In this document: one piece after another, positions 16,027 to 58,333 of the stretch
How positions within the stretch are numbered: position 1 is the first letter of the stretch
How the letters are laid out: the number at the start of each line of letters is the position of its first letter
DNA from: a virus
DNA: 64,000 nucleotides
Reading direction: 5' to 3' (one strand)
IMG/VR virus record: IMGVR_UViG_3300005537_000022
Location: 34,383 to 98,382 of that record
Translations under genes and position numbers: made by a program
Notes under the pieces: model-generated
The model's input: the letters and a program-made list of their open reading frames with translations, nothing else
The model's database searches: none
What the model was told of the DNA's origin: nothing

Positions 16027-16059
16027 CCTCCTTCCGGGGGGCATGCGAAAGCCCCCGGA
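16027..16059 (-). promoter_or_regulatory. Hairpin overlapping the capsid ribosome site
   Basis: In the mRNA, CTCCGGGGGC and GCCCCCCGGA pair (16033-16040 with 16052-16059) around TTTCGCAT; the 3' arm runs into the GGAAGGAGG ribosome site. Similar hairpins with CTTTC loops lie before 13828 and 28485. Regulation is inferred. Confidence 0.45.
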
Positions 16060-16099
16060 GCGGTGCTCACGGGGGCTGGTTCGGTCTTAGGGCGGAGCG

Positions 16100-18118
16100 C
16101 TACCGGCGGGCGCCGTGGATGGCCTCAAGGTGCGTGATGGCCGACCGGTTCAGCTCGGCCGCGATCCGGTTGGCCTCGGCGGGGTCCGCCGTGTACATGC
16201 GCTGCTTCATCTCCCTGGCCTTGGCCACGTCGATGAGGGGCGCCGCCCCGTGGTCCTGTCCGCGAAGCTGGCTCGCCGGGGGGACCTGCCCGTTCGTGAA
16301 TACCTTCGGCGCGGCGGGCGTCTCCTCCACCTTCGCGATGCGGGCCTCCAGCTCCCCGACCTTCGCGAGCGCCCCGGCGACGTCGGCCTGCTTGGCCACG
16401 TCCTGTGCCGGGGGCATCGCGCCGAGCGCTGCTGCCACTGCCTTCGCGACGGCGCTCTCGAGCGCGCCTTCCGTCACCGTGATCACGCCTGTGCCCGCGG
16501 CCTTCCCGACCGCGTCGGCGGGGGTTCCCGCGTCGGCCGGGGGCTGCGGGGTCATGTCGCCGGCATCCGGGGCGGCGTCCTGCGCCCCGTCGCCGTCCGT
16601 GCCGTCCGCGGCGGGCTTGCCGCCCGCGCCGGTGACCGGCTGGATCGCGTCGGGGTCGACGATGCCGATGAGGTCGCCGTCCTGGTCGAACACGGCCTGC
16701 ATCGCCTTCTTCTCCCCGTCGCCGTCGGCCTTCGCGACGCGGAGCGCGATCGACTCCGTGTCGGTGACGCCGACGAGGCGCCGGCCCTGGTCGTAGACGA
16801 GGGTGAGCGCGGCCTTGACGACCTGGCGCCCGGGGACGTCGCCGGGGAGCGCCGCGGCGGAGCCGGCCGCCACGGGCTCGCCCGGGGCGGCGTCGCGGGC
16901 CTGCCCGGCGGGGGATGCGGTCTCCTTGGCGACGTCCGCCGCCTTGGTCTCGGGCACGGTGCCCTCCTTCTCCTTGGCGACCGGCTCTGCGGCCTGGGGT
17001 GCGGACGGGAGGCTCGCGAGCACGTCGCCGAGGGCCTGCGCGGCGTCCCGGATCTTCGTCTCGTTGCTGGCGGACAGGACGCGGCCGGACTTGGCGACGG
17101 CCGCCAGTCCCTCGGCGGCGTCAAGGTGCGCGGTATCGAACCCGGCGAGCGCCTTGCACATCTCCGCCATCTCCGCGCCGATCTCCGCCTCGGCCTGCTC
17201 CCCGGCGGCGAACACCGCGAGGTTCCCGATGGCGTAGTCGATGGCGCAGGCGGCGTCCTCAAGGCTGAACGCGTTCTCCGCGTCGGACGGGTCGGCGGAG
17301 GCGGCTTCGAGCATTTCCCGCTCGGCGAGCATGCACAGGGCGTTCTTCGCGCGGGCGAGGATGCCCGCCCACTTCTGGGCGGTCGCCGCGTCGATCGCCT
17401 CCCACGCCGGGGAACCGGGGTCGGTCGGGTCGCCCGGGACGTCCATCTCGTCATCGGGGGCGGCGAGAGGAGTCGTCGGGTCCATGCCGTCGATGCCCTC
17501 GTCGAGGACGACGGCGTCCCCGGCCATGTCCATTACGTCCTTGCTCACCGCGTACGGCACGCCGGCCTCCTTGGAAACCTTCTTCTCGCCGAACCTCCGC
17601 TGGGCGGCTTCGACCTTGGGCTTCGCCTTGTCGCCGAACTTCGCGCCCTGGGCGATGCGGGCGGCGGCGTTGTCCGCGTGGGCCTTGTCGTGGATGGCGA
17701 AGTGCCGCAGCGAGCGCGGGGTCGTCTTGCCCTCGGCGTCCTTCTTGCCGCCCGGTTCGATGTAGGCGAATGCCGAGTCGGGCAAGTCGTTGAGGCTCTT
17801 CGTGCTCATGTCGGCCTTGGCGACGGAACCGGCTGGGTCCGCCTCGCGTACGCTCGCGGCGTGGATGAACGCGGCCATCGCCGCCGGGGAGCCCTTGATG
17901 ACGATCCCGTTCGGCAAGGTCGTTTCCCCCGCCTCGGCTACGGCTGGCACGGGGGCCTCCTCGATGAGGTCGCGGACGAAATCAGGCTCGAGAAGACCGC
18001 CGCCTTCCGTGCCCTTCATGACGAGCCACTCATCGACGCCGTGCGCCGGAGCGCTCACCAGGTCGGCGCGCGGCAGGTCGGCGTCGAACAGGCCCGTGAA
18101 CTCCTCGTCGTCATCCAT
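16100..18118 (-). CDS. Scaffold-like protein with DUF6582-like segment
   Basis: 672 residues, very acidic and Ala-rich. Residues 1-60 (EEFTGLFDADLPRADLVSAP; EWLVMKGTEGGGLLEPDFV) resemble an entry region linked to prohead proteases. Residues about 105-180 (LNDLPDSAFAYIEPGGKKDA; TPRSLRHFAIHDKAHADNAA) match the segment I associate with DUF6582. The middle and C-terminus are low-complexity, ending in a coiled coil (VGELEARIAKVEE) and a helical end (AREMKQRMYTADPAEANRI). Length, acidity and place between protease and capsid suggest a scaffold removed during maturation. Confidence 0.7.
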   Translation of the reverse strand: MDDDEEFTGLFDADLPRADLVSAPAHGVDEWLVMKGTEGGGLLEPDFVRDLIEEAPVPAVAEAGETTLPNGIVIKGSPAAMAAFIHAASVREADPAGSVAKADMSTKSLNDLPDSAFAYIEPGGKKDAEGKTTPRSLRHFAIHDKAHADNAAARIAQGAKFGDKAKPKVEAAQRRFGEKKVSKEAGVPYAVSKDVMDMAGDAVVLDEGIDGMDPTTPLAAPDDEMDVPGDPTDPGSPAWEAIDAATAQKWAGILARAKNALCMLAEREMLEAASADPSDAENAFSLEDAACAIDYAIGNLAVFAAGEQAEAEIGAEMAEMCKALAGFDTAHLDAAEGLAAVAKSGRVLSASNETKIRDAAQALGDVLASLPSAPQAAEPVAKEKEGTVPETKAADVAKETASPAGQARDAAPGEPVAAGSAAALPGDVPGRQVVKAALTLVYDQGRRLVGVTDTESIALRVAKADGDGEKKAMQAVFDQDGDLIGIVDPDAIQPVTGAGGKPAADGTDGDGAQDAAPDAGDMTPQPPADAGTPADAVGKAAGTGVITVTEGALESAVAKAVAAALGAMPPAQDVAKQADVAGALAKVGELEARIAKVEETPAAPKVFTNGQVPPASQLRGQDHGAAPLIDVAKAREMKQRMYTADPAEANRIAAELNRSAITHLEAIHGARR

Positions 18119-21931: not shown

Positions 21932-22734
21932 GCCGGGACTATCGCGCACCGGCAGCCGCCCGGGTGGGCCGGCGGGCACAGGTCGCCCGAAGGCCACTCG
22001 ATCCCGGCGGGACGGGGATCGGCGGCGGCATTGTCCAGGCACGCCTTGCAGGTCCGGGAGTCCTGTACGGCGGCCCACCGGAGCAGTCCCGCGCCGTTCG
22101 CCTGGTACCACTCCAGCGCGGCCAGGCCGCCCGCGACCGTGATCTGGGTGACGGCCAGCCCCTCGGCGTAAGCCCCGTCCGCCACGGCGGTCTCCAGCAT
22201 GCCCGCGAGCTCGGACGCGGCCGTGTCCGGATCCCAGCCGGCGAGCACGCGGGAGACTACGTTCAGGTAGCCGTCCCCGATCGCCTGGGCGATGCCCGGC
22301 CCTTCCCCGCCGCCGGAGCCGCCGGCGAGCGAGGCGAGCAGCGCGGCCAGGCCGAGCGCCTCCGCCAGCCGCCTCGCCTTCGCCGTGTCTCCCGGGGTCC
22401 AGCCGGCCGTGTCCGCGTCGGCGCTGCCCGCCATCGCGGCCTGCGCCGACGTCCCGCCGATCGCCAGGGCGTCGGCGGCGATCCGCTCGGCCAGGTCCCC
22501 GGCCGGGACCGTGATCCCCTGCGACCGCAGCCAGGCGAGAGCCGCCGCGTTCCGCTCCCGCTTGCCGGGCGCGCTGCCGTCCTGATCCGGGTGGCCGGCC
22601 GTGTACGCGGAGGCGATGGCGTCCAGTTTCCCGCGCGAGAGCGCCTGCCGCGCCGCGGCGGTGACCTTCGGGGCCCACCAGGCGGCGGCGGCCAGGTCTA
22701 GCTTCCAGCCCGGCCAGTCACCAGGGCTTTTGGG
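21928..22734 (-). CDS. MuF-type minor head protein, probably made by -1 frameshift from the portal
   Basis: The frame is in the -1 phase relative to the portal gene and lacks any ATG, GTG or TTG after a GTG at 22854 that has no ribosome site. A slippery heptamer C-CCA-AAA (22734-22728) lies in the portal frame, followed at once by a possible hairpin GCCC...GGGC. Slippage there would give a portal-Nudix-MuF fusion of about 1044 residues. A CTG at 22695 behind GGAAG is the alternative. The C-terminus DSRTCKACLDNAAADPRP and CPPAHPGGCRCAIVP is the signature of MuF/SPP1-gp7-like head morphogenesis proteins, which enter the capsid with the portal. Confidence 0.75.
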   Translation of the reverse strand, partial: PKSPGDWPGWKLDLAAAAWWAPKVTAAARQALSRGKLDAIASAYTAGHPDQDGSAPGKRERNAAALAWLRSQGITVPAGDLAERIAADALAIGGTSAQAAMAGSADADTAGWTPGDTAKARRLAEALGLAALLASLAGGSGGGEGPGIAQAIGDGYLNVVSRVLAGWDPDTAASELAGMLETAVADGAYAEGLAVTQITVAGGLAALEWYQANGAGLLRWAAVQDSRTCKACLDNAAADPRPAGIEWPSGDLCPPAHPGGCRCAIVPA

Positions 22735-25061
22735 ACGGGCATCGCCGCCTTCACCGCGACGGTCTCTTCCGGCTCGCAGCCCAGCAGCGGCAGCACGTCG
22801 CCGAGGGAGGCGGCCAGCTCTTCCCGCAGCATCGGGTTGCCGGGCAGGTCGCACGGGTCAGCCCACATGATCGCCTCGACGGCGTCGCCGTCCGGGTCGT
22901 CCGGGTTCGGCACCACGGCACCGCCGCGGACGGGGACCGCGGCCTCGGACTCGGTCGTCCACACGATGCCCCGGTAGATGCCGTCCCCGGCCGTCCACTC
23001 GCCCGTCACCGAGCCGGGAGGGGGAACGGCCCCGGTTTCCTCTGCCCATTCGCGCCATGCGGCGCGCAGCGGGGACTCATCGCCCTCGACGTGCCCGCCG
23101 GGGAACTCGATCTTGCCTCCGGCCGGGTCGCCGGGGTCGAGCGCCCGCTGGATCATCAGGACGCGGCCGGTGTCGGCGGCGAGGACCGCGAGGCCCGCGA
23201 CCGCGACCTCGCCCGCGGCCTTGCGGACCGCGAGCCTTCCGTCGTCGTTGAGGTTGTGCGCCCAGACCCCTGGCACCGAGCGGAACTCGAAGTCCCGCCA
23301 CTCGCCATCCTTGCGGCGGGCCTTCGCGAACCGGCGGAATGCCCGCATCTCCTTGAGGACGGCCGTGCTGCGGACCGCATCCGCGTCCTCGTCATCGTCG
23401 TCATCGCCGGCGAGGTCGTAGGAGTAGATCCCCGTCTCCGCGGTGATCCCCGCGGAGGCGTTCCCGGCCGGGGCCGCGCCCTCGCCTTCCTTGGCGACGG
23501 GCTGGCCGGGCCCGGCCTCGTCGGCCGGCGTCATCTTCGGCTGCGGGGGCGGCGCCGGTGGCATCGCGGACTCGCCGAACTCCCGCTCGGCCAGCGACAT
23601 GACCTTGATCGGCGGGTTCGGCAGGACGCCCTCCGTGCCGCCGAAGACCGTCCGCGGCAGCTCCGCGCCTTCCTCGGGCAGCCCGTCCGCCGGGTCGACG
23701 TCGCCCGCGACGGCCAGCAGCGAGGAAACCGGGATGGGCCCGGCTCTCTCCGTGTAGATGAACCGGGGGATCGGCCGGGCGTCGGTCAGCCCGTAGCGCA
23801 TCTCGCGGATCTCGGACGGGCCGATGACGCCCATCTTCATGTACTTGTCGTCGGCGTTCGCCTGGTCTACGCGGTCGTCCTGCTCCTCGCCGAGGTCGAA
23901 CGCGAACTTGAGCGGAAGCTGCATGTCGTCTTGCAGGAAAGCGGTCAGGATGTCCTGCACGTGGTGGGCGAGCGGGAGGTCGCCGACGCGGTGCTGCACG
24001 TCGGCCTGCGACTCGCCGCTGCTGCGGTTCACGCTCTCGGTGAACCCGAGGTCGCTGGGGACCACGGAGTAGGCGGCGCACGTCTTGCGCATCAGGAACA
24101 AGCTGAACTTGTCGTCGAAGTCCTTCTCGCTGCTCCACGCGAACGACGAGCCGCCCGGGATCCACCGGATCTGGTGCTTGCCCTCCTGGTTGCCCAGCAT
24201 GAAGCCGTCCCAGTATTCCTGGAACTGCTCGATCTGCTCCGGGGTCCAGCTTTCGGGGGCGCCCGCGAAGGCGGCGGGCAGGTTCCCGGCGGTGAACCGC
24301 TGGAGGAAGTAGAGCTGGAACCGGATGTCGGTGTTGGCGTTGAGGAGGATGTCCTCCAGCGGCGCCCGGCCGTAAGCCGAGTCGTCCTGCGGGTCGTACG
24401 GCTCGTAGATCAGGTCGTCGCGGGTCAGCCAGTCCCAGGCCAGCCCGTTGACGTACTGGACGTAGGCGGGGGCGGGAGAGTCCGGGGGGTCGCCCCAGTA
24501 GTCGAGCAGCGGCGCGATCGTGGTGCCGTCGACGACCCTCAGGCCGACGCACCGGCCGGCCCGGTTCCGCATCCGGGCCAGGGTGCCGGCGTCGTAGGAC
24601 AGTACGCCCCTCATCCACTTGGCCAGCCACGGCTTGAACAGGGTCTTGCGGTCCGGCCGCTTCAGCGCGCGCATCCCGGCGGCGATGTCATCGGCGACGT
24701 CGCCGTCGTGGCCGTCGGCGGCGACGAGCTTCCAGTCCAGGCTGCGGAGGCTGGCGATCCTGTGGCGGATGCAGAGCTGGGCTACGTCGTAGGAGCCGAT
24801 CAGGCCCTTGAGCGTCTCGAAGCTGACCCGTTCGTGGGTGCGCGGCCGGGTGGCCACGTTGTACTGCGGGACGTACTCCTTGGACCGCGGGGTGCGGGAG
24901 AACCCGTCGTACGGCGCGATCGGCTCGCCTGGCGAGAACGGGGACGACGGGCCCATCTGGGCGCGTTCCTCGGCTGCCTCGATCGCGGGCGGGACGGAGC
25001 TGCCGAAGACCTTCGCGACAGGCACCGGCGCGGCGGCGGCGGCGCGGGAACGGACGCTCAT
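22698..25061 (-). CDS. Portal protein with C-terminal Nudix hydrolase domain
   Basis: 787 residues. Residues about 1-480 are portal-like: YDVAQLCIRHRIASLRSLDW, LFKPWLAKWMRGVLSYDAG, AGRCVGLRVVDGTTIAPLLD, LTRDDLIYEPYDPQ, PESWTPEQIEQFQEYWDGFM and SSFAWSSEKDFDDKFSL, followed by a helical SQADVQHRVGDLPLAHHVQD. After a low-complexity linker, residues about 620-760 hold a Nudix domain: FPGGHVEGDES, then RAAWREWAEETGAVPP fits GX5EX7REUXEEXGU, preceded by AGLAVLAADTGRVLMIQRA. By family knowledge Nudix enzymes cleave nucleoside-diphosphate-linked substrates. The fusion is unusual for a portal. Confidence 0.9.
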   Translation of the reverse strand: MSVRSRAAAAAPVPVAKVFGSSVPPAIEAAEERAQMGPSSPFSPGEPIAPYDGFSRTPRSKEYVPQYNVATRPRTHERVSFETLKGLIGSYDVAQLCIRHRIASLRSLDWKLVAADGHDGDVADDIAAGMRALKRPDRKTLFKPWLAKWMRGVLSYDAGTLARMRNRAGRCVGLRVVDGTTIAPLLDYWGDPPDSPAPAYVQYVNGLAWDWLTRDDLIYEPYDPQDDSAYGRAPLEDILLNANTDIRFQLYFLQRFTAGNLPAAFAGAPESWTPEQIEQFQEYWDGFMLGNQEGKHQIRWIPGGSSFAWSSEKDFDDKFSLFLMRKTCAAYSVVPSDLGFTESVNRSSGESQADVQHRVGDLPLAHHVQDILTAFLQDDMQLPLKFAFDLGEEQDDRVDQANADDKYMKMGVIGPSEIREMRYGLTDARPIPRFIYTERAGPIPVSSLLAVAGDVDPADGLPEEGAELPRTVFGGTEGVLPNPPIKVMSLAEREFGESAMPPAPPPQPKMTPADEAGPGQPVAKEGEGAAPAGNASAGITAETGIYSYDLAGDDDDDEDADAVRSTAVLKEMRAFRRFAKARRKDGEWRDFEFRSVPGVWAHNLNDDGRLAVRKAAGEVAVAGLAVLAADTGRVLMIQRALDPGDPAGGKIEFPGGHVEGDESPLRAAWREWAEETGAVPPPGSVTGEWTAGDGIYRGIVWTTESEAAVPVRGGAVVPNPDDPDGDAVEAIMWADPCDLPGNPMLREELAASLGDVLPLLGCEPEETVAVKAAMPVPKALVTGRAGS

Positions 25062-25790: not shown

Positions 25791-27455
25791 CTACCGGCCT
25801 GTCATGCGCGCCCGCATCGCCGCGTCCCTCGCCAGCTTCCTCGCGGTCACCGGGTCGGGAGGGACTGGCGGTTCGGGTTCCGGGGCGTCCTCGGGGGCCG
25901 GGGCGCGGCGCGGGGACGGCGCGGGGTTCCCGGCTTCGGCCTCCGCGAGTTCGGCTTTTCTTTTCGCCCAGTTAATCCAGGCTTCAGCACCGCCGCCGAC
26001 ATTCAATAGCCAGTACCTCAATGCGTCCATGAGGTGGTCGGGGGCGCTGGAGTTCGCATCTTCAGGGTCGCCCCGGGTCGCGTGCGGGAGATTGGATAGT
26101 TCCCACCACGTCTTCGGCAGCGTCCGGAAGAAATGGATCATCGGGCAGGTTTCCCAGCCCATCCCCCGGTGCATCAGGCAGGCAGGGCCTTCGGCGAGGT
26201 AGGAGTGGACGCGCTGCCACCCCGAGACCCTCGATCCCGGACCCTTGCCCGCAGGCGTCAGGTGGACGCCGTTGTCCGAGTAAATCCGGGAGATCGCCTT
26301 GGCATCGCCCCTGGTGGCAAACATCGCGTCGTCGCCGTACCGCGCCGCGATGTGCTCGGCCTCGCCCTCGGACGCGAGGATGCGCTTCGCCTGCTCCGCT
26401 TCGCCGACCTGGGTCTCGTAGATCTCGCGGTAAGCCCAGCATCTGCCGTCCTCGTCGACCGCGCCCCACAGCACAGCCCACGGTGCCGTGTAGCCCCAGT
26501 CAACCGAGCAGTACCGGCGCCACGAGGCGGGGAGCGTGAACGGGTCGACAGAGTGCCGGTCCCAGCGGAGCTCGGGGAACATCTGCCCGGCGAACTGGCC
26601 CCAGTCGCCGTCTCGCATCGCCGCGCGACGGGCCGGGTCGGGGATGGCGTCCAGGCGGCGGAAGTACGCCTCGTCCAGGTGGGGGTTGTCGGTGGCCTTC
26701 GCGGGGATGAACCGCACCGTGAGGCCGTGGTCGTCAGTGACGACCTTGCGCCCGTGCTCCGTCGGGTCGATGTACCGGGCGCGGACCTCGCCGTGACCGG
26801 GGCCGCCCGGGTTGGACGTCGACCGGATGCCGATCACCGGGACGCCGTGCGCCGACCGGAGCCGCTCAAGCGCGATCACGTCAACGATCCCCGGGGCGAG
26901 CAGCGTGCGCTCGTCGACGAACACGAGCTGGTACGCGCCGCCCTGGCGCCGGGACGCGTCGTCGAGCGTCTCCATGTAGCGCAGCCGGATCAGCGAACGG
27001 TTCGGGAAGGCGACTTCCTTCTCCGTCTTGTTCAGCCTGCCGCCGAGGGCCTCGCCCCAAGCGAACCGCTGGAACTCCGGGTAGATCGACTCCGCGAGCT
27101 CGTCATAGGAGCGGCGCAGGATCAGGACGCGGATTCCGGGGTACCGGGCACAGGCCCGCAGTGCCTCGGCGACGATCGCGGCCGTCTTGCCGCCGCCCGC
27201 CGATCCGCCGTACAGGACGTCGTCCTCGGTCGCCGCATGGAACTGCTCTTGCGGGCACTGGCCGCAGGGCTCGGGAACAATCGCGTCGCCCCGCTTGCGG
27301 GCCGCCTGGCGCGGCAGGCAGATCGGCTCGTAGCCCAGCACCTTGAAGGCGTCTACATTGCGGAGCCGCTCTTCGTCGGCCGCGCGCTTGCGCTCGCGGA
27401 GCTCGGCGAGACGGCGGAGGGTGTCAGGCGACGCCAGGACGAGGGGTGCCGGCAT
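25791..27455 (-). CDS. terL: Terminase large subunit
   Basis: 554 residues. Walker A GGSAGGGKT near residue 85, an adenine-site-like QCPQEQFHAAT before it, LRRSYDELAESIYPEF, Walker B-like YQLVFVDE near 185, a coupling motif SNPGGPGHG, and the nuclease domain with CSVDWGYTAPWAVLWG and a final HLMDALRYWLL. ATPase plus RNase-H-like nuclease is the standard packaging motor layout. The C-terminal tail is Pro/Glu-rich. It overlaps terS by 32 bases. Confidence 0.95.
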   Translation of the reverse strand: MPAPLVLASPDTLRRLAELRERKRAADEERLRNVDAFKVLGYEPICLPRQAARKRGDAIVPEPCGQCPQEQFHAATEDDVLYGGSAGGGKTAAIVAEALRACARYPGIRVLILRRSYDELAESIYPEFQRFAWGEALGGRLNKTEKEVAFPNRSLIRLRYMETLDDASRRQGGAYQLVFVDERTLLAPGIVDVIALERLRSAHGVPVIGIRSTSNPGGPGHGEVRARYIDPTEHGRKVVTDDHGLTVRFIPAKATDNPHLDEAYFRRLDAIPDPARRAAMRDGDWGQFAGQMFPELRWDRHSVDPFTLPASWRRYCSVDWGYTAPWAVLWGAVDEDGRCWAYREIYETQVGEAEQAKRILASEGEAEHIAARYGDDAMFATRGDAKAISRIYSDNGVHLTPAGKGPGSRVSGWQRVHSYLAEGPACLMHRGMGWETCPMIHFFRTLPKTWWELSNLPHATRGDPEDANSSAPDHLMDALRYWLLNVGGGAEAWINWAKRKAELAEAEAGNPAPSPRRAPAPEDAPEPEPPVPPDPVTARKLARDAAMRARMTGR

Positions 27456-29560: not shown

Positions 29561-30841
29561 CTATCCCGTCTCGCCGAGTGAGCGCTTCAGGAACTGCTTC
29601 TTGTGCTCCTGTCCCCACCGCTCGGACATCCCGACGCGCTCGGCGAGCTGGGCCCCGCTGATGTCCGGCTCCGCGGCAAGGATCTTGTCCGCGTCCTCCC
29701 GCGCGGCCCGCGCGATTTCGAGTTGCGTGCGGCCCGCAGGAGCACCCGCAGGGACAGCCCTGGACCCCGCAGGCGCGCCGGCCTTGCGGGTAAGCGACGC
29801 CGCCTTTGCCTCGGCCCGCGCGGCCCGCTGGCCGGCTTCCGCGCGGGCGGCTTCCGCGGCCTCCAGCGCCGTCCGCGCGGACTCGGCCGCGGCCCGCGCC
29901 TCGTCGAGCTGAGCCTGGAGGACAGGCCGCAGGACAGCGTCCCGCTCCACGCCGGCACGGGCGTTCCGCTCGGCATCGAGGCTGGTACGCAGGTTCCGCG
30001 TCTCGGTCTCGCGCGCCTCCCGCACCGTCCTCAGCTCAGCCCGCGCCGAGTCGAGCGCCATCTCAAGTTCCCCGCACCGCGCCTCCCGCAGGGCAGCCTC
30101 GCGGGCCGCGCCCGCGGCCTCCCGCGCGGCCTGCGTGCGGGCCTCCCCCGCGGCTTGCGCGGCAGCCCTTGCGGTCTCCAGTTCCTTGCGGAAGGCGTCC
30201 CGCTCGGCTTCGATCGCGGGGCGCAGGGCAGCCTCCCGCCGGGCCGTTTCGCGGGCCGCGCGCTCAGCCTCAAGCTCCTCCCGCAGGGTCCGCACGTCCG
30301 TCTCGCGCGCCCCCCGCGCGGTGTCGAGCGCGGCCCGCAGGGCGGTGATCTCGTCCGCCTCCGCGGCCTTGCGCCCGGCGGCCTCGGCGCGGTCCCGGTC
30401 GAGATGGCGCAGGTGCGCCAGGATGGCGCTCAGCCCGACCGCGACCAGCGGGATGGGCGTTATGAGCGCCGCCATCCACAGGGGGGCCTGCCGGTGGGCG
30501 GCGCTCACCAGGTGGCCCGCTTCCTGGCCGCCCAGGCTGAGGGCGAACATCACGATCGCGGACCACATGGCGAATGCCCGGGAGCGCGGCCCGGGTGCGC
30601 CGGCGAGCCACGCCCACAGCGCGTATCCCCAGTACGCCTCGGTGGTCACGGGGAGGATCCAGCCGGTGGTCATGCGGCCGAACTTCGGGAAGCCGGAGAC
30701 GCTGCCGATGACGAGCCATGACGCCCAGACTTCGATGAGGGCGCAGGCGGCGATGATCGCGAGGACCCAGAGGTGGTCGCGGCGGGACGTGCCCGCGGCG
30801 GGGTGCGCTTCTTCGGCTGAGTGACTGCCCATGTCGGCCAT
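29561..30841 (-). CDS. Membrane and coiled-coil protein, DUF2637/spread-like
   Basis: 426 residues. Four predicted membrane segments occupy about 25-150 (LWVLAIIAACALIEVWASWL; WILPVTTEAYWGYALWAWLA; MWSAIVMFALSLGG; MAALITPIPLVAVGLSAIL), followed by a very long Ala/Glu/Arg coiled coil (150-370) and a C-terminal HTH-like end (DISGAQLAERVGMSERWGQE). The membrane part resembles DUF2637 proteins encoded beside tra genes on Streptomyces plasmids and AICEs. It probably anchors a DNA-linked coiled-coil assembly in the membrane. Function inferred. Confidence 0.65.
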   Translation of the reverse strand: MADMGSHSAEEAHPAAGTSRRDHLWVLAIIAACALIEVWASWLVIGSVSGFPKFGRMTTGWILPVTTEAYWGYALWAWLAGAPGPRSRAFAMWSAIVMFALSLGGQEAGHLVSAAHRQAPLWMAALITPIPLVAVGLSAILAHLRHLDRDRAEAAGRKAAEADEITALRAALDTARGARETDVRTLREELEAERAARETARREAALRPAIEAERDAFRKELETARAAAQAAGEARTQAAREAAGAAREAALREARCGELEMALDSARAELRTVREARETETRNLRTSLDAERNARAGVERDAVLRPVLQAQLDEARAAAESARTALEAAEAARAEAGQRAARAEAKAASLTRKAGAPAGSRAVPAGAPAGRTQLEIARAAREDADKILAAEPDISGAQLAERVGMSERWGQEHKKQFLKRSLGETG

Positions 30842-30915: not shown

Positions 30916-31230
30916 TCAGGCGAACTCCGCCAGCAGCGCCCGCGTCTGCTTCGGGCCCAGGCCCCGTATCCGGCGGTCGCGGGCGATGCCGATCCGGTCC
31001 ATGACCTGGCCGGCACGGACCCCTCCGAGGCCCGGCAGGGACATGAGCAGGGTCTTCACCTTCATGCCCGCGAGGACGTCGTTCTCAGCGGCCTCCGCGA
31101 TGACCGCGGCGAGCGTGACCTCCCCGGACTTGAGGCGGTTCTTGAGAGCGGCGCGCTCCTTGCGGGCCGTTGCCGCCTTCTGCAACGCTTCGGCGCGCTG
31201 CTCGGGGGTTAGTTCGGGGAGTGTTCCCAT
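30916..31230 (-). CDS. Integration host factor, actinobacterial type (mIHF/sIHF)
   Basis: 104 residues. LTPEQRAEALQKAATARKER, AALKNRLKSGEVTLAAVI, GMKVKTLLMSLPGLGGVRAG and QVMDRIGIARDRRIRGLGP match the family: N-terminal helix, then a helix-two-turn-helix domain with the PGLGGVRA motif. The family bends DNA and supports integration, excision and nucleoid structure in actinobacteria. Its presence in a phage or plasmid element beside a translocase suggests a nucleoprotein role at the repeat cluster. Confidence 0.85.
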   Translation of the reverse strand: MGTLPELTPEQRAEALQKAATARKERAALKNRLKSGEVTLAAVIAEAAENDVLAGMKVKTLLMSLPGLGGVRAGQVMDRIGIARDRRIRGLGPKQTRALLAEFA

Positions 31231-31285: not shown

Positions 31286-31510
31286 TCAGTTCCGCAGGCT
31301 GGCGGCGCGGGCCTCGTCCGGGGTGCCCCGCCCGTCGAATCCGCGCTTCTCGAAGCCCAGGGCCCGGCCGGTCGCGGGGTCCGTCCGGGACATGACCGGG
31401 GCGCCGTTTCCGTCCGTCAGGCCGAAGTCGCCTGGTGCCGCCTCCACCTGGACCTTCTTCCGCAGGCCGAGCGCCTTCATGAGCTTGCCGGGGCTCTCGC
31501 GGATCGGCAT
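31286..31510 (-). CDS. Small hypothetical protein
   Basis: 74 residues from ATG 31510 with a GGAAGGAG site. PIRESPGKLMKALGLRKKVQ, GDFGLTDGNGAPVMSR and KRGFDGRGTPDEARAASLR. It lies directly downstream of the repeat cluster. No family recognised. Confidence 0.55.
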   Translation of the reverse strand: MPIRESPGKLMKALGLRKKVQVEAAPGDFGLTDGNGAPVMSRTDPATGRALGFEKRGFDGRGTPDEARAASLRN

Positions 31511-31553
31511 GTTCCCCACTCTCCTTCCCTGATTGGTTACTGTGCGTGATTTC

Positions 31554-31699
31554 GACGGGGTGTCCAGGGTGTCCAGAACGGACAGTCCAGGGTGTCCAGA
31601 ACGGTGTCCAGAACGGGTGTCCTCGCGCCCGCGCGCGCACGCCTGCGCGCGTAGGGGGGCGCAGGCGGCCTCCCGGCTGGACACCCTGGACACCCCGTC
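31554..31699. repeat. Repeat cluster beside TraB-like gene: candidate clt or origin
   Basis: Four exact GGTGTCCAG copies start at 31559, 31568, 31591 and 31603, with partial copies at 31582 and 31616; two inverted copies CTGGACACC lie at 31677 and 31686. The outer parts form a perfect 23-bp inverted repeat (31554-31576 with 31677-31699) that flanks a GC-rich core. The block ends 11 bases from the TraB-like stop codon. Streptomyces TraB proteins recognise 8-bp direct repeats in a clt locus, and clt can lie next to traB. An iteron origin is the main alternative. Confidence 0.6.
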
Positions 31700-31710: not shown

Positions 31711-33825
31711 TCACTGTGCGGAGTGGACGAGGGTCAGCAGGGCGGCGTCGCCCTCGGCGACCGCCCCCAGCTCGGCGTGGACCGACCGGCCCGGGACCGG
31801 GCGCCACACGCCGTCATCCACCCTGGTCACGGCGCCCCGGTCGGCCAGCCGGGACAAGGTGTCCGACACCCATGACGGGGACATGCCCGACGCCTCGATG
31901 AGTTCCCGGCGGGAGATCCCGGCGGGGCCCGCTGCGGCGAGCGCGTCGCAGAACGCCTTGCGCCTGGCGGCCTTGCCCGCGCTGGCGCGGGCCGCCGCCC
32001 CGGGGGCGGGGGCGATGTCGTCGCCCTCGGTCTCGGCAGCGATCCGGGCCGCCACCGCGGCGCCGTCCTCGTCCTGGCCGCCGGCGGGGGGAGGGACGGC
32101 TGCCGCCGGCGCGTAACCGGGGCCGTGTTCCGTTTCGCCCGGGTCGCCGAACATCTCGACGGCAGCCGCGTACTGCGGCGAGACCGGGCGGAACGCCGGG
32201 TCGGTCCGCAGGTGCCTGCGGTCCCACCACTCCTGCCACGTGAGGCTCCCGAAGCCGCTCGGCTCGCCCCCGCAGAACAGGAGCAGGCGGGGGCGCTTCA
32301 CCGTGCGGGCGTTCTCCGCGCACACCCGTTCGAGCAGCGAGTGCGGCACGTGCGGGGCGCGGAGCTTCTCCGGCCTGGCACGCGGGCCGAGCTTCATCAG
32401 GAACTCGCCCTTCTCCTCCAGCCTGGAGGCGTCGCTGCGGGCGTCGCCGAGCGCGTACGACCCGTGGTCGGCGTGCTCGACCGCGTAGCAGGCCCGCAGC
32501 GGCAGGTTCATCCGCGTCTGCTCCGTCCTGACGCTCTCCTCCAGGGCGCCGTACTGGGTGTAGACCTCGAAGTACTCCTCCAGGCCCGATCCCTGGCTGG
32601 CGCCGATGGCCAGCAGCCGGGCGCACTCGGAGTCGCCCGCGGTCACCGACGTGAGCGGGTTGGCCTCGTCGATGAGGACGTGGATCGCGGGCGTGCGCGG
32701 GTCGGCCAGGGCCTGCTCCTGGCCGGTGTCCCAGTCGCGGGCGCGGGCGGCGATCTCGGCGCACAGCATCCGCAGGCAGGCGCGGGCCTCGTCCAGGTCC
32801 GTGATCACCCAGTCGACCGCGGCGGACTTGAGCAGGGGCCGGGCGCTGCGCTTCTTCAGGTCGATGACGATCTGCCGGCTGTCGGGGCAGCCGGAGAGCT
32901 GGACGACGCGCAGCGCCAGGTGGTTCGACTTCCCGGACCTCGTCTTGCCGTTGACGAACGCATTCGTGCGCTGCGGCACGCGGACCAGCTCCCCGGTCTC
33001 GGACATGCCGAGGACCGCGTCCTCGTGCACGGAGCGGGGGGCGAGCGACGGGTCCCACTCGATGACCTCGCGCAGCGGGTTCTCCCGCTTCATGAACACG
33101 TCGGCCTGGCTGGGGTTGCCCTTGACGGGCTCCACGCGGACCATGCCGATGTCCGAGTGGCCCTGGAGCGCGGACTCGATCAGGTGCACGGCGTCCTTCA
33201 CGCTGTGGAACGACTGGCGGCCGGGCACGAGCTGGACGCGCAGCCGCACCTGGGACGGCTTCTCCTCGGCGGCGATGACCCGGGAACCGCCCACTCCCCA
33301 CGCGGGGGCGTGGGCGGCCCACCATGCCTGCCAGCCGGCCAGGAGCCTTTCCCGGTCCTTGGTGCCGCGGACCCGGTGATGCTGCCACCAGAAATATCCC
33401 CACGCGCCGGACAGGACGGCGAGGGAGCCGGCCAGGCCGGGGCCCGCGCCCGACACGGGGCCGAGCAGCGAGGCGGCGGACAGCCACCCGCAGCCCGCGA
33501 CGGCCGACAGCCGGGCGTACCACACCTCGGGCATGCGGGGCGTCCCGTCCTTCCGCGTCCACTTGTGGGGCGCGAACCACCATACGGCCGCGGTCAGGGC
33601 CGCCCCGGCGTAGGCGGCGTCCGAGCCGGTCCCGTTCGCGTGCATGATCTCCGCCGCCGTCCACGCGACGGCCGGGACCGCGACGGGCACGGAGATGTCG
33701 CGGCGGCGCCGCGCCGCCCGGATGATCCGGGCCGGGAGCGCCTCGGACTGCCGCCTCGGCTGCGGCATGCCGGGCACGTGCACGGGCGCGTGGTCCGGGC
33801 GGGGCTCGACTTCGGTGCCGGGCAC
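31711..33825 (-). CDS. FtsK/SpoIIIE-type DNA translocase, conjugal TraB-like
   Basis: 704 residues from GTG 33825. The N-terminus has three probable membrane segments at about 45-150 (VPVAVPAVAWTAAEIMHANG; AALTAAVWWFAPHKW; LAGSLAVLSGAWGYFWW). The ATPase core has Walker A GKTRSGKSNHLALRV at about 300, QIVIDLKKRSARPLL, and Walker B IHVLIDEANPL at about 395, then LLAIGASQGSGLEEYFEVYT. The C-terminus has a winged helix (GISRRELIEASGMSPSWVSD) in the position of the FtsK gamma or TraB DNA-recognition domain. By family knowledge this forms a hexameric dsDNA pump in mycelial conjugation. It lies upstream of membrane and Wbl genes in the same operon. Confidence 0.85.
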   Translation of the reverse strand: MPGTEVEPRPDHAPVHVPGMPQPRRQSEALPARIIRAARRRRDISVPVAVPAVAWTAAEIMHANGTGSDAAYAGAALTAAVWWFAPHKWTRKDGTPRMPEVWYARLSAVAGCGWLSAASLLGPVSGAGPGLAGSLAVLSGAWGYFWWQHHRVRGTKDRERLLAGWQAWWAAHAPAWGVGGSRVIAAEEKPSQVRLRVQLVPGRQSFHSVKDAVHLIESALQGHSDIGMVRVEPVKGNPSQADVFMKRENPLREVIEWDPSLAPRSVHEDAVLGMSETGELVRVPQRTNAFVNGKTRSGKSNHLALRVVQLSGCPDSRQIVIDLKKRSARPLLKSAAVDWVITDLDEARACLRMLCAEIAARARDWDTGQEQALADPRTPAIHVLIDEANPLTSVTAGDSECARLLAIGASQGSGLEEYFEVYTQYGALEESVRTEQTRMNLPLRACYAVEHADHGSYALGDARSDASRLEEKGEFLMKLGPRARPEKLRAPHVPHSLLERVCAENARTVKRPRLLLFCGGEPSGFGSLTWQEWWDRRHLRTDPAFRPVSPQYAAAVEMFGDPGETEHGPGYAPAAAVPPPAGGQDEDGAAVAARIAAETEGDDIAPAPGAAARASAGKAARRKAFCDALAAAGPAGISRRELIEASGMSPSWVSDTLSRLADRGAVTRVDDGVWRPVPGRSVHAELGAVAEGDAALLTLVHSAQ

Positions 33826-33827
33826 GG

Positions 33828-34793
33828 TCAGCGGCCCGCCGTCTCGGCGAGCTGGTCGTGGTGGGGCATCCGCCGGCCCGCGGCCATGGACTCCTCGACG
33901 CTGGCCTTCAGCAGGGCGGCGAGGGCGGCATCGGATTCGGCGAACGCGGACGCCGCCGCGTTCAGGTGCGAGGCGCCCATGGCTATGGGCTCGCTCACGT
34001 CATGGCCGTAGTGCTGGTCCGGCTCGGACAGGGCGCGGGCCATCGACAGGGCCATGGCGGCGGCGCGGCGGCAGATGGCGATCAGCGCGATCATGGCGCG
34101 GCGCTTGGCCTTGATGTTGCCGGCCAGCGCGTAGGCGCGGACGCGGCTCATTCCCTCGACTGCCTGCTCGACTCCGGGTACCGCCTCGGCGGCTGCTGGC
34201 GTGGTCACGGTGTTCCCTTCAGGGACGGGCGTTCCGGTAGGTCCCGGCGCGGGGCGGGGCGGGAGCGGGGGGCCGCCTCCGTCCCGCGCCGGGGGCTCTG
34301 GCGGCTGCGGGGGGTCCTGGGGGAGTGCGGGGTCCCGGGGGGTGCCGGGGCGTTCTGGGTCCGGCAGAGGGCTGGCCGGCGGCGCGGCCCCGCCGCCGCC
34401 GGGGCTGGCGCCGGCCGGGGAGTCCCGGCGGGGACGCTCGTCCCCGAGCCGGATGACCCGTCCGCGGACGGTGCCGCCCCGCGGGCGGGGGCCGAGCGGT
34501 TCCGGGGACTGCGGGCCGCCGCCCGCCGTTCCGCGGTCCCGTCCGCGCGCCCGCGCGGCGGCCTCCTGCTCTTCGAGCCTGTGCTTGTGCCGGGCCGCGT
34601 CGCGGAGCAGGCTGTTGTAGTGCTTCGCGGTCTCCAGCCGCAGGGCGCGCCGGTGAGCCAGCCAGCCGGAGAGGGGACCGCCCCGCTTCTTCCCGCCCTC
34701 GCCCCGGTGCCGCACGCGGAGCCGGGCCACGAACAAGCCCGGCACGCCGATGAGGACCAGCGCCAGGACGACATCTGCGCCGTGCACGTGCAC
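33828..34793 (-). CDS. Single-membrane-segment, proline-rich protein of transfer module
   Basis: 321 residues. An N-terminal membrane segment (VVLALVLIGVPGLFVARLRV) is followed by a basic coiled region, a long Pro/Gly/Arg disordered part (about 85-200) and a helical C-terminus (VRAYALAGNIKAKRRAMIAL; AAMALSMARALSE; FAESDAALAALLKASVEESM). It ends two bases before TraB. Composition fits a scaffold or spread-type partner of TraB. Inferred from context. Confidence 0.6.
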   Translation of the reverse strand: MHVHGADVVLALVLIGVPGLFVARLRVRHRGEGGKKRGGPLSGWLAHRRALRLETAKHYNSLLRDAARHKHRLEEQEAAARARGRDRGTAGGGPQSPEPLGPRPRGGTVRGRVIRLGDERPRRDSPAGASPGGGGAAPPASPLPDPERPGTPRDPALPQDPPQPPEPPARDGGGPPLPPRPAPGPTGTPVPEGNTVTTPAAAEAVPGVEQAVEGMSRVRAYALAGNIKAKRRAMIALIAICRRAAAMALSMARALSEPDQHYGHDVSEPIAMGASHLNAAASAFAESDAALAALLKASVEESMAAGRRMPHHDQLAETAGR

Positions 34794-34797
34794 CGCA

Positions 34798-35250
34798 TCA
34801 TCCGCCTATCCACTGCGACACCTGCGCAGCCCACTGCTGCACGGGGAACACGGTCAGCACGCCGTGCAGGTGGCCGCCGCTCAGCGCCGCCGCGAAGGGA
34901 AGCGCCAGCGCGAACCAGGCGACCCTGGGCCCGGGTTCCAGCCACGCGCCGAGGACCGCCGCGAGGAACAGCGTGAAGCCGCTGATGACGACGATCTCGT
35001 GCCCGGTGCCCGTGCGGACGGGGCCCGCCATCGACACCAGGCTGGCCTCCCAGCCGGTCAGGATGCCGCCGAGGGGCGACACGACGACCGCCGCGCCGCC
35101 GGTGAACATGCCGAAGATCAGCAGCCGGTACGCCCACGGGTGCAGGCGGGGCGGCAGGTTCCCGCCGTGGCGTCCCGCGAACCATAGCAGCGCGATTACC
35201 GCGCCGAGGAGGATGACGCCGAACGAGGACCCGGCGATGGCGGCCGTCAT
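34798..35250 (-). CDS. Four-helix membrane protein of transfer module
   Basis: 150 residues from ATG 35250, overlapping the Wbl stop. Four hydrophobic segments: FGVILLGAVIALLWFAG, LLIFGMFTGGAAVVVSPLGG, EIVVISGFTLFLAAVLGAWL and VAWFALALPFAAALSGGHLH. Small multi-pass proteins next to traB are often spread proteins (Spd) in actinobacterial elements. Direct family match not established. Confidence 0.6.
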   Translation of the reverse strand: MTAAIAGSSFGVILLGAVIALLWFAGRHGGNLPPRLHPWAYRLLIFGMFTGGAAVVVSPLGGILTGWEASLVSMAGPVRTGTGHEIVVISGFTLFLAAVLGAWLEPGPRVAWFALALPFAAALSGGHLHGVLTVFPVQQWAAQVSQWIGG

Positions 35251-35561
35251 GCCGCCAGCCCGTTCCGCCCGGAGTTCCGCCCGGCGATGATCGCGCGCCG
35301 TTCCCGTTCGGTCGTGCCGCCCCACACGCCCCACAGCTCGCCGGCGTCCAGCGCGTGCTCGAGGCAGGCGCCCCGGACGGGGCAGGCGGCGCAGACGCGG
35401 AGGGCGGGGGCGGCAGACTGGCCGGGGTCCGGGTAGAACAGGGCCGGGTCGGTCTCGGCGCACAGCGCGCCGTCCTGCCAGGGGGGCTCTCCCGGCTGGT
35501 CCCAGCCGGGAACCGGGGGCTGCCAGGCCAGGACCTGGATGACGCGGGGATTCGCGGTCAC
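35247..35561 (-). CDS. WhiB-like [4Fe-4S] protein (first of tandem pair)
   Basis: 104 residues from GTG 35561 (overlap with the next Wbl stop). Cys pattern: GALCAETDPALFYPDPGQ, then RVCAACPVRGACLEHAL, giving four cluster Cys with CxxC, followed by the G-V-W-G-G turn (ELWGVWGGTTERERRAI) and a basic end. The family uses the cluster and the turn to bind the principal sigma factor. Phage-encoded Wbl proteins are known to repress host wbl genes. It lies in an operon with membrane and TraB genes. Confidence 0.85.
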   Translation of the reverse strand: MTANPRVIQVLAWQPPVPGWDQPGEPPWQDGALCAETDPALFYPDPGQSAAPALRVCAACPVRGACLEHALDAGELWGVWGGTTERERRAIIAGRNSGRNGLAA

Positions 35562-35824
35562 GCCGCGCTCCTTTCCCGGCGCAGCACGGTGGCCCGCTCG
35601 CGGGCGGTCAGGCCGCCGAACACGCCGTGCCCGATCCGGTTCGCGAGCGCGAACCGAAGGCACTCGGGGCGCACCGTGCAGCCGGCGCACCAGGTGATCG
35701 CCTTGCGTGCCTGCGCCTTGAACGCCCGGGTGTCCGGGCGGGCGGCCGGGAAGAAGATCTCCGGGTCGGCGGTGCGGCAGGCGGCGAGCGCCGTCCAGTC
35801 ACGGACGGGAAACGGGGCGGTCAC
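35558..35824 (-). CDS. WhiB-like protein (second of tandem pair)
   Basis: 88 residues from GTG 35824. DWTALAACRTADPEIFFPAA, then AITWCAGCTVRPECLRFALA and HGVFGGLTARERATVL: the four Cys and a GVFGG turn instead of GVWGG. The Trp-to-Phe change is common in Wbl subclasses. It is coupled by GTGA overlaps on both sides, so the two Wbl proteins are made together. Confidence 0.85.
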   Translation of the reverse strand: MTAPFPVRDWTALAACRTADPEIFFPAARPDTRAFKAQARKAITWCAGCTVRPECLRFALANRIGHGVFGGLTARERATVLRRERSAA

Positions 35825-35973
35825 GACGGGTCCTCCTCTTCGTCTTCGGGCCACATGACGCGGCGGAGCGCGTCGCCGAACTCCTGGGCGGCCCCCGCGT
35901 CCTTCGCGCCGATCTTGCGGACCGTGTCCCACAAGGGGTTAAGGTCCGTTTCGGTGTAGGTCCGGATGCTCAC
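35821..35973 (-). CDS. 50-residue acidic protein
   Basis: GTG 35973, overlapping the 32-codon gene upstream and the Wbl gene downstream by four bases. SIRTYTETDLNPLWDTVRKI, KDAGAAQEFGDALRRVMWPE, ending EDEEEDPS. Helical, with acidic tail. Unknown function; coupling supports reality. Confidence 0.55.
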   Translation of the reverse strand: MSIRTYTETDLNPLWDTVRKIGAKDAGAAQEFGDALRRVMWPEDEEEDPS

Positions 35974-37296: not shown

Positions 37297-37400
37297 ACCC
37301 CCGGGTGATTCGTGGTCGCCCGGGGGGTTTACCGCCGATCAAGTTCCCTTACCCAGAGGATCGACTTGCCCAATTCTAGGGGCACGCCTTCGGCGTGCCC
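37297..37400 (+). terminator. Two hairpins in the rep leader
   Basis: ACCCCCGGG / CCCGGGGGGT (37297-37305 with 37319-37328, then TTT) looks like the GntR terminator. A second perfect 9-bp stem GGGCACGCC-TTC-GGCGTGCCC is at 37380-37400. The stretch 37266-37464 has no gene; the second hairpin could end a countertranscript or attenuate the initiator gene. Confidence 0.5.
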
Positions 37401-37464
37401 TCCCGAAATCCCATTTCGTCGCGCGCCGGCAACGGCGGCATTACCCGTGGGAGCCTCCAACGCG

Positions 37465-38397
37465 ATGTCAGCACTCCGGCTGTACTCCTCCAGGGTGCCG
37501 CCGCTTTCCATGTGCGCGCTCGCCTATATGGCGCTCGTCTCCATCGACAAGGATGCTGAGCCGTGGTACCAGGCGGGGGCCGAGCTGCTCGCCGTCATGG
37601 CACTCGGCCGCGACCCGCTAGCCGAGACCGGCGACGCGAAGGCGGACGCCAGGGCGCGGAAGGCGATGGAAGTCGCTTGCGAGCGCGCACTACGGCCGCT
37701 GTTCGCCACGGGTGCGATCACGACCGCCAAGCGCTCATCGGGGCATCTGCGGGGGTCGCACCACGCGAAGTACCGGCTGTGGCTGGACGCGCCCGCACCC
37801 GACGAGGCGCGCGACCCGCGCAACCGCGCGGCGCGGGGAGCGCCCTACGGAAACCGTGGTGTGCAGAACCCGGGCGAGACGGAGGCCGGGAACCCCGCCG
37901 ATGACGGCGTGCCCTACGGAAACCGTAGGGCACCCGAGGATGGCACCCTACGGAAACCGTGCCCGCACCCTACGGAAAGCGTTACAGCGCCCTACGGAAT
38001 CCGTAGGGCTAAGGAGTACGAGGAAGAAGAGGAGCGAATAGAAAACCTAGAGGAACATCCGCCTCTCTCGTCGGACCCGGTACCGGTACGCGCACGCGAG
38101 GCATCCGACGACCGGAATCATGTGACCTCAGTTCGGGTGATCGAGTCGCCGCTGCTCGCCGTCGTCCAGACCGAGGAGACCGGGGAGGACGCCCGGTGCC
38201 GGTACGACAGGTGCCTTACGCCACCCCAGCCCATTGAGGGCGACGGCCATCACGCCCGCTGCCGTCTCCTCGCGTCCGTCAAGGCCAAGGGCAAGCAGTC
38301 CCCGGCGGCGTCACGAGCCGGGCAGCGCCAGGACCACCGGGCCGGTGCAGGCAGCACCGGCCCGGGACTAACCGAACCCAGTCAGGAGACAGCATGA
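37465..38397 (+). CDS. Replication-initiator-like protein with intragenic iterons
   Basis: 310 residues from ATG 37465 (GGGAG ten bases before); the longer frame is less likely. Residues 1-110 look like a winged helix (SALRLYSSRVPPLSMCALAY; MALVSIDKDAEPWYQAGAEL; ERALRPLFATGAITTAKRSS then HHAKYRLWL). The middle is disordered with repeated PYGNR/PYGIR, encoded by five DNA iterons. The C-terminus has CRYDRCLTPPQPIEGDGHHA then CRLLASVKAKGK. The layout copies lambda O: N-terminal DNA binding, ori inside the gene, C-terminal partner domain. Family match not proven. Confidence 0.6.
   Translation: MSALRLYSSRVPPLSMCALAYMALVSIDKDAEPWYQAGAELLAVMALGRDPLAETGDAKADARARKAMEVACERALRPLFATGAITTAKRSSGHLRGSHHAKYRLWLDAPAPDEARDPRNRAARGAPYGNRGVQNPGETEAGNPADDGVPYGNRRAPEDGTLRKPCPHPTESVTAPYGIRRAKEYEEEEERIENLEEHPPLSSDPVPVRAREASDDRNHVTSVRVIESPLLAVVQTEETGEDARCRYDRCLTPPQPIEGDGHHARCRLLASVKAKGKQSPAASRAGQRQDHRAGAGSTGPGLTEPSQETA
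37843..38060. repeat. Iteron array inside initiator gene, candidate origin 1
   Basis: Five copies of CCCTACGGAAACCGT or close variants start at 37843, 37912, 37946, 37968 and 37990; copies 2 and 5 extend to full palindromes CCCTACGGAAACCGTAGGGC and CCCTACGGAATCCGTAGGGC. The last three are spaced 22 bases apart, about two helical turns. A purine-rich, relatively AT-rich stretch (38011-38060) follows, as in lambda ori. Confidence 0.65.
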
Positions 38398-58055: not shown

Positions 58056-58333
58056 GCCTGTTCTGGCGGTTCGCGCTCGCGGGAGGCTTGTGGATGCTCC
58101 CCGGTGCCGCCCTGTACCTGGCCTGCGCCGCGTGGGCCCTGGTGCCGGTGGCCCTGTCGCGGATCGGGCGGTTCGCGCGGAGCCTGGACACCGCGGTGAA
58201 GCCCGACGATCCCCACCCGTACGCGGCCGAGGTCTCGTGGCCGGGGTCGTGCTGGTGCGGGCGCGGCAAGGAGCACCCGAAGCACCTCAAGGCCGGCGGG
58301 GCGATGACGGCGCTGAAGGAGGACCGGCGTTGA
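58052..58333 (+). CDS. Small membrane protein with Cys/His tail
   Basis: 93 residues from GTG 58052. Hydrophobic FALAGGLWMLPGAALYLACA and AWALVPVALSRIGRFARS give one or two membrane segments; the tail has CWCGRGKEHPKHLKAGGA, a possible metal site facing the cytoplasm. Unknown; a lysis or exclusion role cannot be excluded. Confidence 0.6.
   Translation: MSLFWRFALAGGLWMLPGAALYLACAAWALVPVALSRIGRFARSLDTAVKPDDPHPYAAEVSWPGSCWCGRGKEHPKHLKAGGAMTALKEDRR

Follow-up and report, generated by a model that had tools for sequence, protein, structure and literature searches.

A repeat array beside a TraB/FtsK-type translocase gene on a phage genome is probably a clt-type docking site

A TraB/FtsK-type DNA translocase gene and a compact cluster of repeats at 31554-31699 lie side by side in a 64,000-nucleotide stretch of viral DNA (the window; positions 34383-98382 of the 98,382-bp IMG/VR record IMGVR_UViG_3300005537_000022). 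Comparison with homologous loci suggests, at a probability of roughly 0.8, that the cluster is a clt-type locus, at which the adjacent translocase would dock or load. Comparative evidence strongly supports that this translocase family recognises the array and that array and translocase are conserved together: the repeat word varies from element to element, and it tracks a single part of the protein, helix alpha3 of the C-terminal winged helix.

The components of the array that had been listed in an earlier, sequence-only reading were all found as claimed, namely four direct and two inverted exact copies of the iteron GGTGTCCAG, partial copies, and the perfect inverted repeat of 23 bp that frames them, with 11 bases separating the end of the array from the stop codon of the translocase gene (Table 1). 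Elsewhere in the window an exact GGTGTCCAG occurs just once (58184-58192, minus strand), and GGTGTCCAGNACGG is unique to the array within the whole record. Only two repeat families in the window reach at least five copies of a 9-mer per 150 nt, the array and another at 37843.

The nature of the neighbouring gene and of the genome was likewise confirmed. The translocase matched phrog_1358 ('FtsK/SpoIIIE-like', E = 5e-12) in PHROGs, the sole match of its motor in the PDB was the conjugation translocase TcpA (E = 2e-4), and its last 100 residues were modelled as a winged helix (AlphaFold C-terminal domain, mean predicted local distance difference test score (pLDDT) 83). For Pfam family PF01580 the window protein fell short of the cut-off (13.9 bits, E = 1e-3), which the homologues of loci L415, L416 and L417 passed. 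Since the full-length AlphaFold model built from two sequences was poor (pLDDT 40; long helices at the N-terminus, at low confidence), the C-terminal domain model alone was used; in Foldseek, MarR-type and other winged helices came out on top, none better than E = 2e-3. The record carries terminase, portal and tail genes as well as a tyrosine integrase (record 16034-16543, about 50 kb from the array and translocase), the gene set of a temperate tailed phage.

Five further phage contigs encode homologues of the translocase, as do about 95 elements integrated in Actinomycetes genomes. Looking up the protein and the DNA in the phage collection returned no relatives, nor did a scan of genome contigs with a two-row alignment, and the family surfaced only by profile search of genomes. 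A profile of two phage proteins detected relatives in 6 of 395 Actinomycetes genomes; a five-row profile at E <= 1e-30 picked them up in two orders, in 130/347 and 14/35 genomes respectively. Right after the translocase stop codon, nearly all homologues show direct repeats, a CG-rich core and inverted repeats. Within 150 nt of the stop codon in 99 full-length members, the best inverted 6-mer averaged 4.5 copies, compared with 2.2 in coding controls and 2.35 in dinucleotide shuffles, and 59 of the 99 loci exceeded all 40 shuffles. The core, GYCTGCR, was present in 94/97 loci and in 7/97 coding controls. It lies mostly on the translocase strand in integrative elements; the long CTGCGCG form lies on the opposite strand in the window, L004, L420 and L484.

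The words of these arrays were grouped into classes and cross-tabulated against four residues of alpha3. RPTR was accompanied by GTCTC in 34/34 cases and RATR by the same word in 5/5 (39/39 together), RTW(Q/S/D) by GTCCG in 12/12, RSWY by GTCCA in 4/4, and RRWY/L by GTGCA in 12/13; RPWQ went with GTCTA in 11/15, or 15/19 when counted as RPW(Q/W/L). For 78 members whose translocase bodies differ by at least 10%, alpha3 and array correlated at 0.635 in a partial Mantel test controlling for body divergence, a value reached by 0/2000 permutations, none of which rose above 0.16. When 58 ten-column windows along the protein were compared, alpha3 gave 0.60, the runner-up, which adjoins alpha3, 0.20, and the median window -0.01. 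At 10-30% body divergence, alpha3 identity was 0.91 if the word was the same and 0.62 if it differed, and matched pairs revealed the effect at all levels of body divergence. On the body tree 28 word changes were placed, with independent pairs agreeing about 26 times over five classes and never pointing the opposite way. The window helix itself has S-W together with GTCCA, as in the four RSWY elements, and among phages found later L483 and L485 (RSW) have GTCCA and L484 (ESW) has CTCCA. This co-variation provides comparative evidence that the adjacent translocase reads the array. It also speaks against the outcome that the sequence-only reading had named as its refutation, that the repeats would prove to serve a repressor or initiator only.

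Several points weigh against this interpretation. The Mantel permutations remove relatedness incompletely, and the sign tests within single classes had small samples (4-10 pairs). A script sorted the words into classes; for the tree test, four ambiguous assignments were decided by eye. The phages L004 and L420 match loosely at best (words TTCCA and TTCCGG), and every phage member is a metagenomic contig. Co-variation, moreover, tells which protein reads the array, not the purpose of the reading.

One counterpart among phages is viral contig G001 (97.8 kb; locus L004), which is broadly collinear with the window's record and has a translocase 58% identical to that of the window. After its stop codon the same layout appears with another word, TTTTCCATTTCTCCA, followed by the core TACGCGCGCAGGCG and then TGGAAATGGAGAAGTGGAATTCCACGGTGGAAAAC. 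Additional phage contigs are G706 (L420), L483, L484 (with L486) and L485; their array words are TTTTCCGG in L420, CGTCCAC in L483, CCTCCA in L484 and AGTCCA in L485. The terminase of G706 is 74% identical to that of the window, on a contig with its own translocase nearby, and L485 (63.6 kb) has the terminase-side genes and a DUF2637 gene in the same order. Integrases were found in G000, G001 and the record of L484. Pattern scans of viral contigs for GTGTCCA pairs or for the core gave largely chance or coding hits.

Three integrated elements were viewed more widely. The translocase gene adjoins a tyrosine integrase gene in L415 and L416 and a resolvase-type recombinase gene in L417, and a GntR regulator gene adjoins it in L416 only. 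No rep gene was recognised in the stretches of L415 and L416, and both of these mini-elements keep the array. Because xis and int come after the array in many integrative relatives, the repeats could be thought of as integrase arm sites or part of an attachment site. Such a role is very improbable, as the integrase of the window phage lies far from the array, phages without int beside the array keep it, and the co-variation is with alpha3 of the translocase. Across the family the gene downstream of the array varies (xis/int, DUF2637 and others) while the array stays after the translocase. The same constancy bears on the suggestion that a phage repressor, or the translocase as its own regulator, uses the repeats as operators, or that they form a terminator-like RNA hairpin. 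The array sits between same-strand genes, immediately upstream of 31286-31511, and its inverted repeat folds strongly (z = -8.5 for the DNA strand relative to shuffles, none of which equals it), both of which would suit an operator or hairpin. That suggestion nevertheless carries little probability, given that the word follows alpha3, the array persists when the downstream gene changes, no T-run follows the long inverted repeat, and no Rfam family matches.

The sequence-only reading had offered a clt locus or a plasmid origin. The clt alternative is favoured by the layout, position and core in about 95 homologues and by the alpha3-word co-variation, and the plasmid origin is disfavoured by the lack of an AT-rich stretch, the mini-elements without a recognised rep gene and a second array. 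Initiator iterons of a plasmid or phage origin could fit the layout alone, since an unbiased scan for inverted clusters revealed that in unrelated phages and contigs (L348, L349, L356, L334, L325, L077 and L095) primase-helicase genes carry at their 3' ends inverted GTGTCCA clusters of similar geometry, which are probably origins using a similar word. An origin at 31554-31699 was set aside because these primase-linked clusters are mostly AT-rich and tied to other proteins. A stretch of 20-40% GC was found in 6/7 of the clusters measured (lowest 30-nt GC 0.20-0.40), whereas the lowest 30-nt GC within 31554-31699 is 0.57. The window array has neither an AT-rich unwinding region nor an adjacent initiator gene, the gene adjoining it being the translocase, and mini-elements of the form GntR-TraB-array-integrase, with no recognised rep gene, retain it. 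Another gene of the window, 37312-38397, contains a separate iteron array, followed by a purine/AT-rich run, that looks like a candidate lambda-O-type replication origin. With no stretch below 57% GC and this second array present, the origin explanation is therefore rated as improbable. Gene 37312-38397 lies just after a GntR regulator gene.

Known transfer systems offer several parallels to a clt-type array. In plasmid pWTY27 the clt, footprinted with TraA, sits at the 3' end of traA and comprises four TGACACC repeats plus inverted repeats (PMC3583192). TraB reads 8-bp TraB recognition sequence (TRS) repeats at clt through its C-terminus (PMC4170104). Streptomyces plasmid TraB moves double-stranded DNA. 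The window locus resembles the TraB/clt systems of pSVH1, pIJ101, pJV1 and pWTY27 in having a single FtsK-type translocase with a C-terminal DNA-recognition domain and short repeats beside the tra gene, and, as the co-variation suggests, in that the element's own translocase recognises the repeats through its C-terminal domain. It differs in its symmetric iteron arms, conserved CG-rich core, many co-diverging words and phage location, and the kinship with plasmid TraB is weak, the nearest plasmid translocases found being 27-30% identical over part of their length.

The nearest cellular relatives of the window translocase lie in integrated elements that combine an integrase and an Xis-like gene with the same array, plus a GntR regulator in L416, and in this they recall actinomycete integrative conjugative elements (AICEs). 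The window phage differs from a compact AICE, made up of integrase, tra and a replication module, in being a 98-kb phage with a distant integrase, so that its transfer cassette alone is AICE-like. For pSAM2, the best-known AICE, no clt has been described, according to a 2022 paper (PMC9513070). Unlike the window translocase, the FtsK proteins of the Streptomyces AICE-like loci L007 and L008 lack the C-terminal domain, and no array was seen beyond their stop codons. Plasmid-phages of the pZL12/pSLE1 type in Streptomyces also combine phage genes and a conjugation function in one element, and transfer of pZL12 requires a tra gene (PMC3583192; PMC4487206). The window phage differs from this type in having a tyrosine integrase, and no ParA or ParB was seen among its 82 scanned proteins. 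Two circular Streptomyces plasmids of 93 and 90 kb (L009 and L010), probably phage-plasmids, have a translocase match, which in L010 is near a terminase gene. A search for the same repeat beside traB homologues had been proposed; the layout and core do recur in phages and integrative elements, with the word varying, and no comparable array follows the translocases of L009 and L010.

The winged helix of FtsK reads 8-bp words. FtsK gamma with its FtsK orienting polar sequences (KOPS) and TcpA of pCW3 share with the window system a motor for double-stranded DNA; KOPS are polar single sites scattered along the chromosome, whereas the window has one symmetric array. Three circular Nocardia plasmids of 60-65 kb (L259, L260 and L261) show a DUF2637-like match beside ParA and Lsr2 genes, with Rep annotated in two, and no FtsK annotation was present in the stretch viewed.

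For a clt-type array, several translocase subunits would bind the 9-bp iterons through their C-terminal winged helices, with alpha3 reading GTCCA, on both arms flanking the CG-rich core. By analogy with Streptomyces TraB, a translocase hexamer would then load at the array and pump double-stranded phage or prophage DNA through a pore in the membrane, either to the next hyphal compartment or to a mating partner, and the gene content suggests that the cargo would be the temperate phage genome. Conjugation by this phage, or its spread through mycelium, is inferred from such comparisons, and the phage may thus also spread without virus particles. We lean slightly towards a temperate actinomycete phage lineage that carries a complete TraB-clt cassette and would spread both as virions and, by pumping through hyphae or between mating mycelia, as naked double-stranded DNA, in a family that would supply a natural, largely predictable code linking helix and clt word. 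It is possible, if rather doubtful, that the array is a docking site for a pump used in some other phage step (moving DNA across septa in infected mycelium, partition or help with packaging) and not in mating between strains. The translocase gene is oriented as the terminase and portal genes are, genes in a position like that of spread (Spd) genes are conserved, and Streptomyces TraB and Spd proteins also drive intramycelial spreading, all of which would accord with such a step. Against it, the closest non-phage relatives sit in integrase-bearing integrative elements typical of conjugative AICEs, and transfer is for that reason the simplest ancestral role.

Among the genes around the array and translocase (Table 1), 33828..34793 could have a Spd-type role, judged by position. 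No Pfam hit to DUF2637 was obtained for the window protein 29561..30841 itself. Just past the array, 30916-31230 (minus strand) encodes a small S13-like H2TH domain protein (PF22525, E = 2e-27), for which no G001 match was seen. Upstream of the translocase cluster, the overlapping minus-strand reading frames 35247-35690 and 35558-35932 both match one G001 frame. The portal protein has a MutT/Nudix match at its C-terminus (residues 619-685), apparently as a single fused protein. ARAGORN placed a 96-base tRNA-Asp at 24492-24587 (plus strand), antisense within the portal gene, possibly a false hit. A search of phage records with PF03354 (TerL) was empty; this was the wrong family, and the terminase is plain by PHROGs. 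Gene 60392-61459 matches the phage replication-initiator family phrog_3926 (E = 1e-13), and two WhiB proteins were among the 82 proteins scanned.

Table 1. Positions of the repeat array, the translocase and other features in the window.
Feature	Position	Strand	Details
Outer arm of 23-bp inverted repeat	31554..31576	+	Two head-to-tail GGTGTCCAG iterons (31559-31567, 31568-31576)
Further iterons	31582..31624	+	Partial ACAGTCCAG 31582-31590; exact 31591-31599 and 31603-31611; partial GGTGTCCTC 31616-31624
CG-rich alternating core	31625..31676	.	31640-31655 is CGCCTGCGCGCGTAGG, counterpart of the GYCTGCR core of homologous loci
Inner arm of inverted repeat	31677..31699	-	Two minus-strand GGTGTCCAG iterons (31677-31685, 31686-31694)
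TraB/FtsK-type DNA translocase	31711..33825	-	704 residues; Walker A GKTRSGKS; C-terminal winged helix
Codons of recognition helix alpha3	31840..31878	-	About residues 650-662, PSWVSDTLSRLAD; segment co-varying with the iteron word
Conserved gene upstream of translocase	33828..34793	-	Kept in G001, G706 and L483-L485; no Pfam hit
Conserved membrane-protein-like gene, same cluster	34798..35463	-	59% identical in G001; present in G706 and L485
First long gene past the repeats	29561..30841	-	Phage L485 has a DUF2637 gene in this place (E = 6e-17)
Terminase large subunit	25791..27455	-	PHROGs match; marks phage identity
Portal protein	22698..25061	-	PHROGs match; marks phage identity
Separate iteron array	37840..38008	+	Five CCCTACGGAAACCGT, the last three 22 nt apart, inside gene 37312-38397; then purine/AT-rich run

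TraB-clt systems and one conjugative plasmid-phage, pZL12, were already known. As far as searchable papers show, what is new is that integrative elements have a family of clt-type loci which share a conserved core and show a helix-word association, and that this family is present also on integrase-bearing temperate phages. With about 95 putative transfer sites that have a common layout, core and helix-word match, TraB specificity, incompatibility and cross-mobilisation become testable and partly predictable. If the proposed role is true, the cassette, which at least six phage contigs carry, would let some viruses travel without virions too, in addition to pZL12, the one well-studied plasmid-phage.
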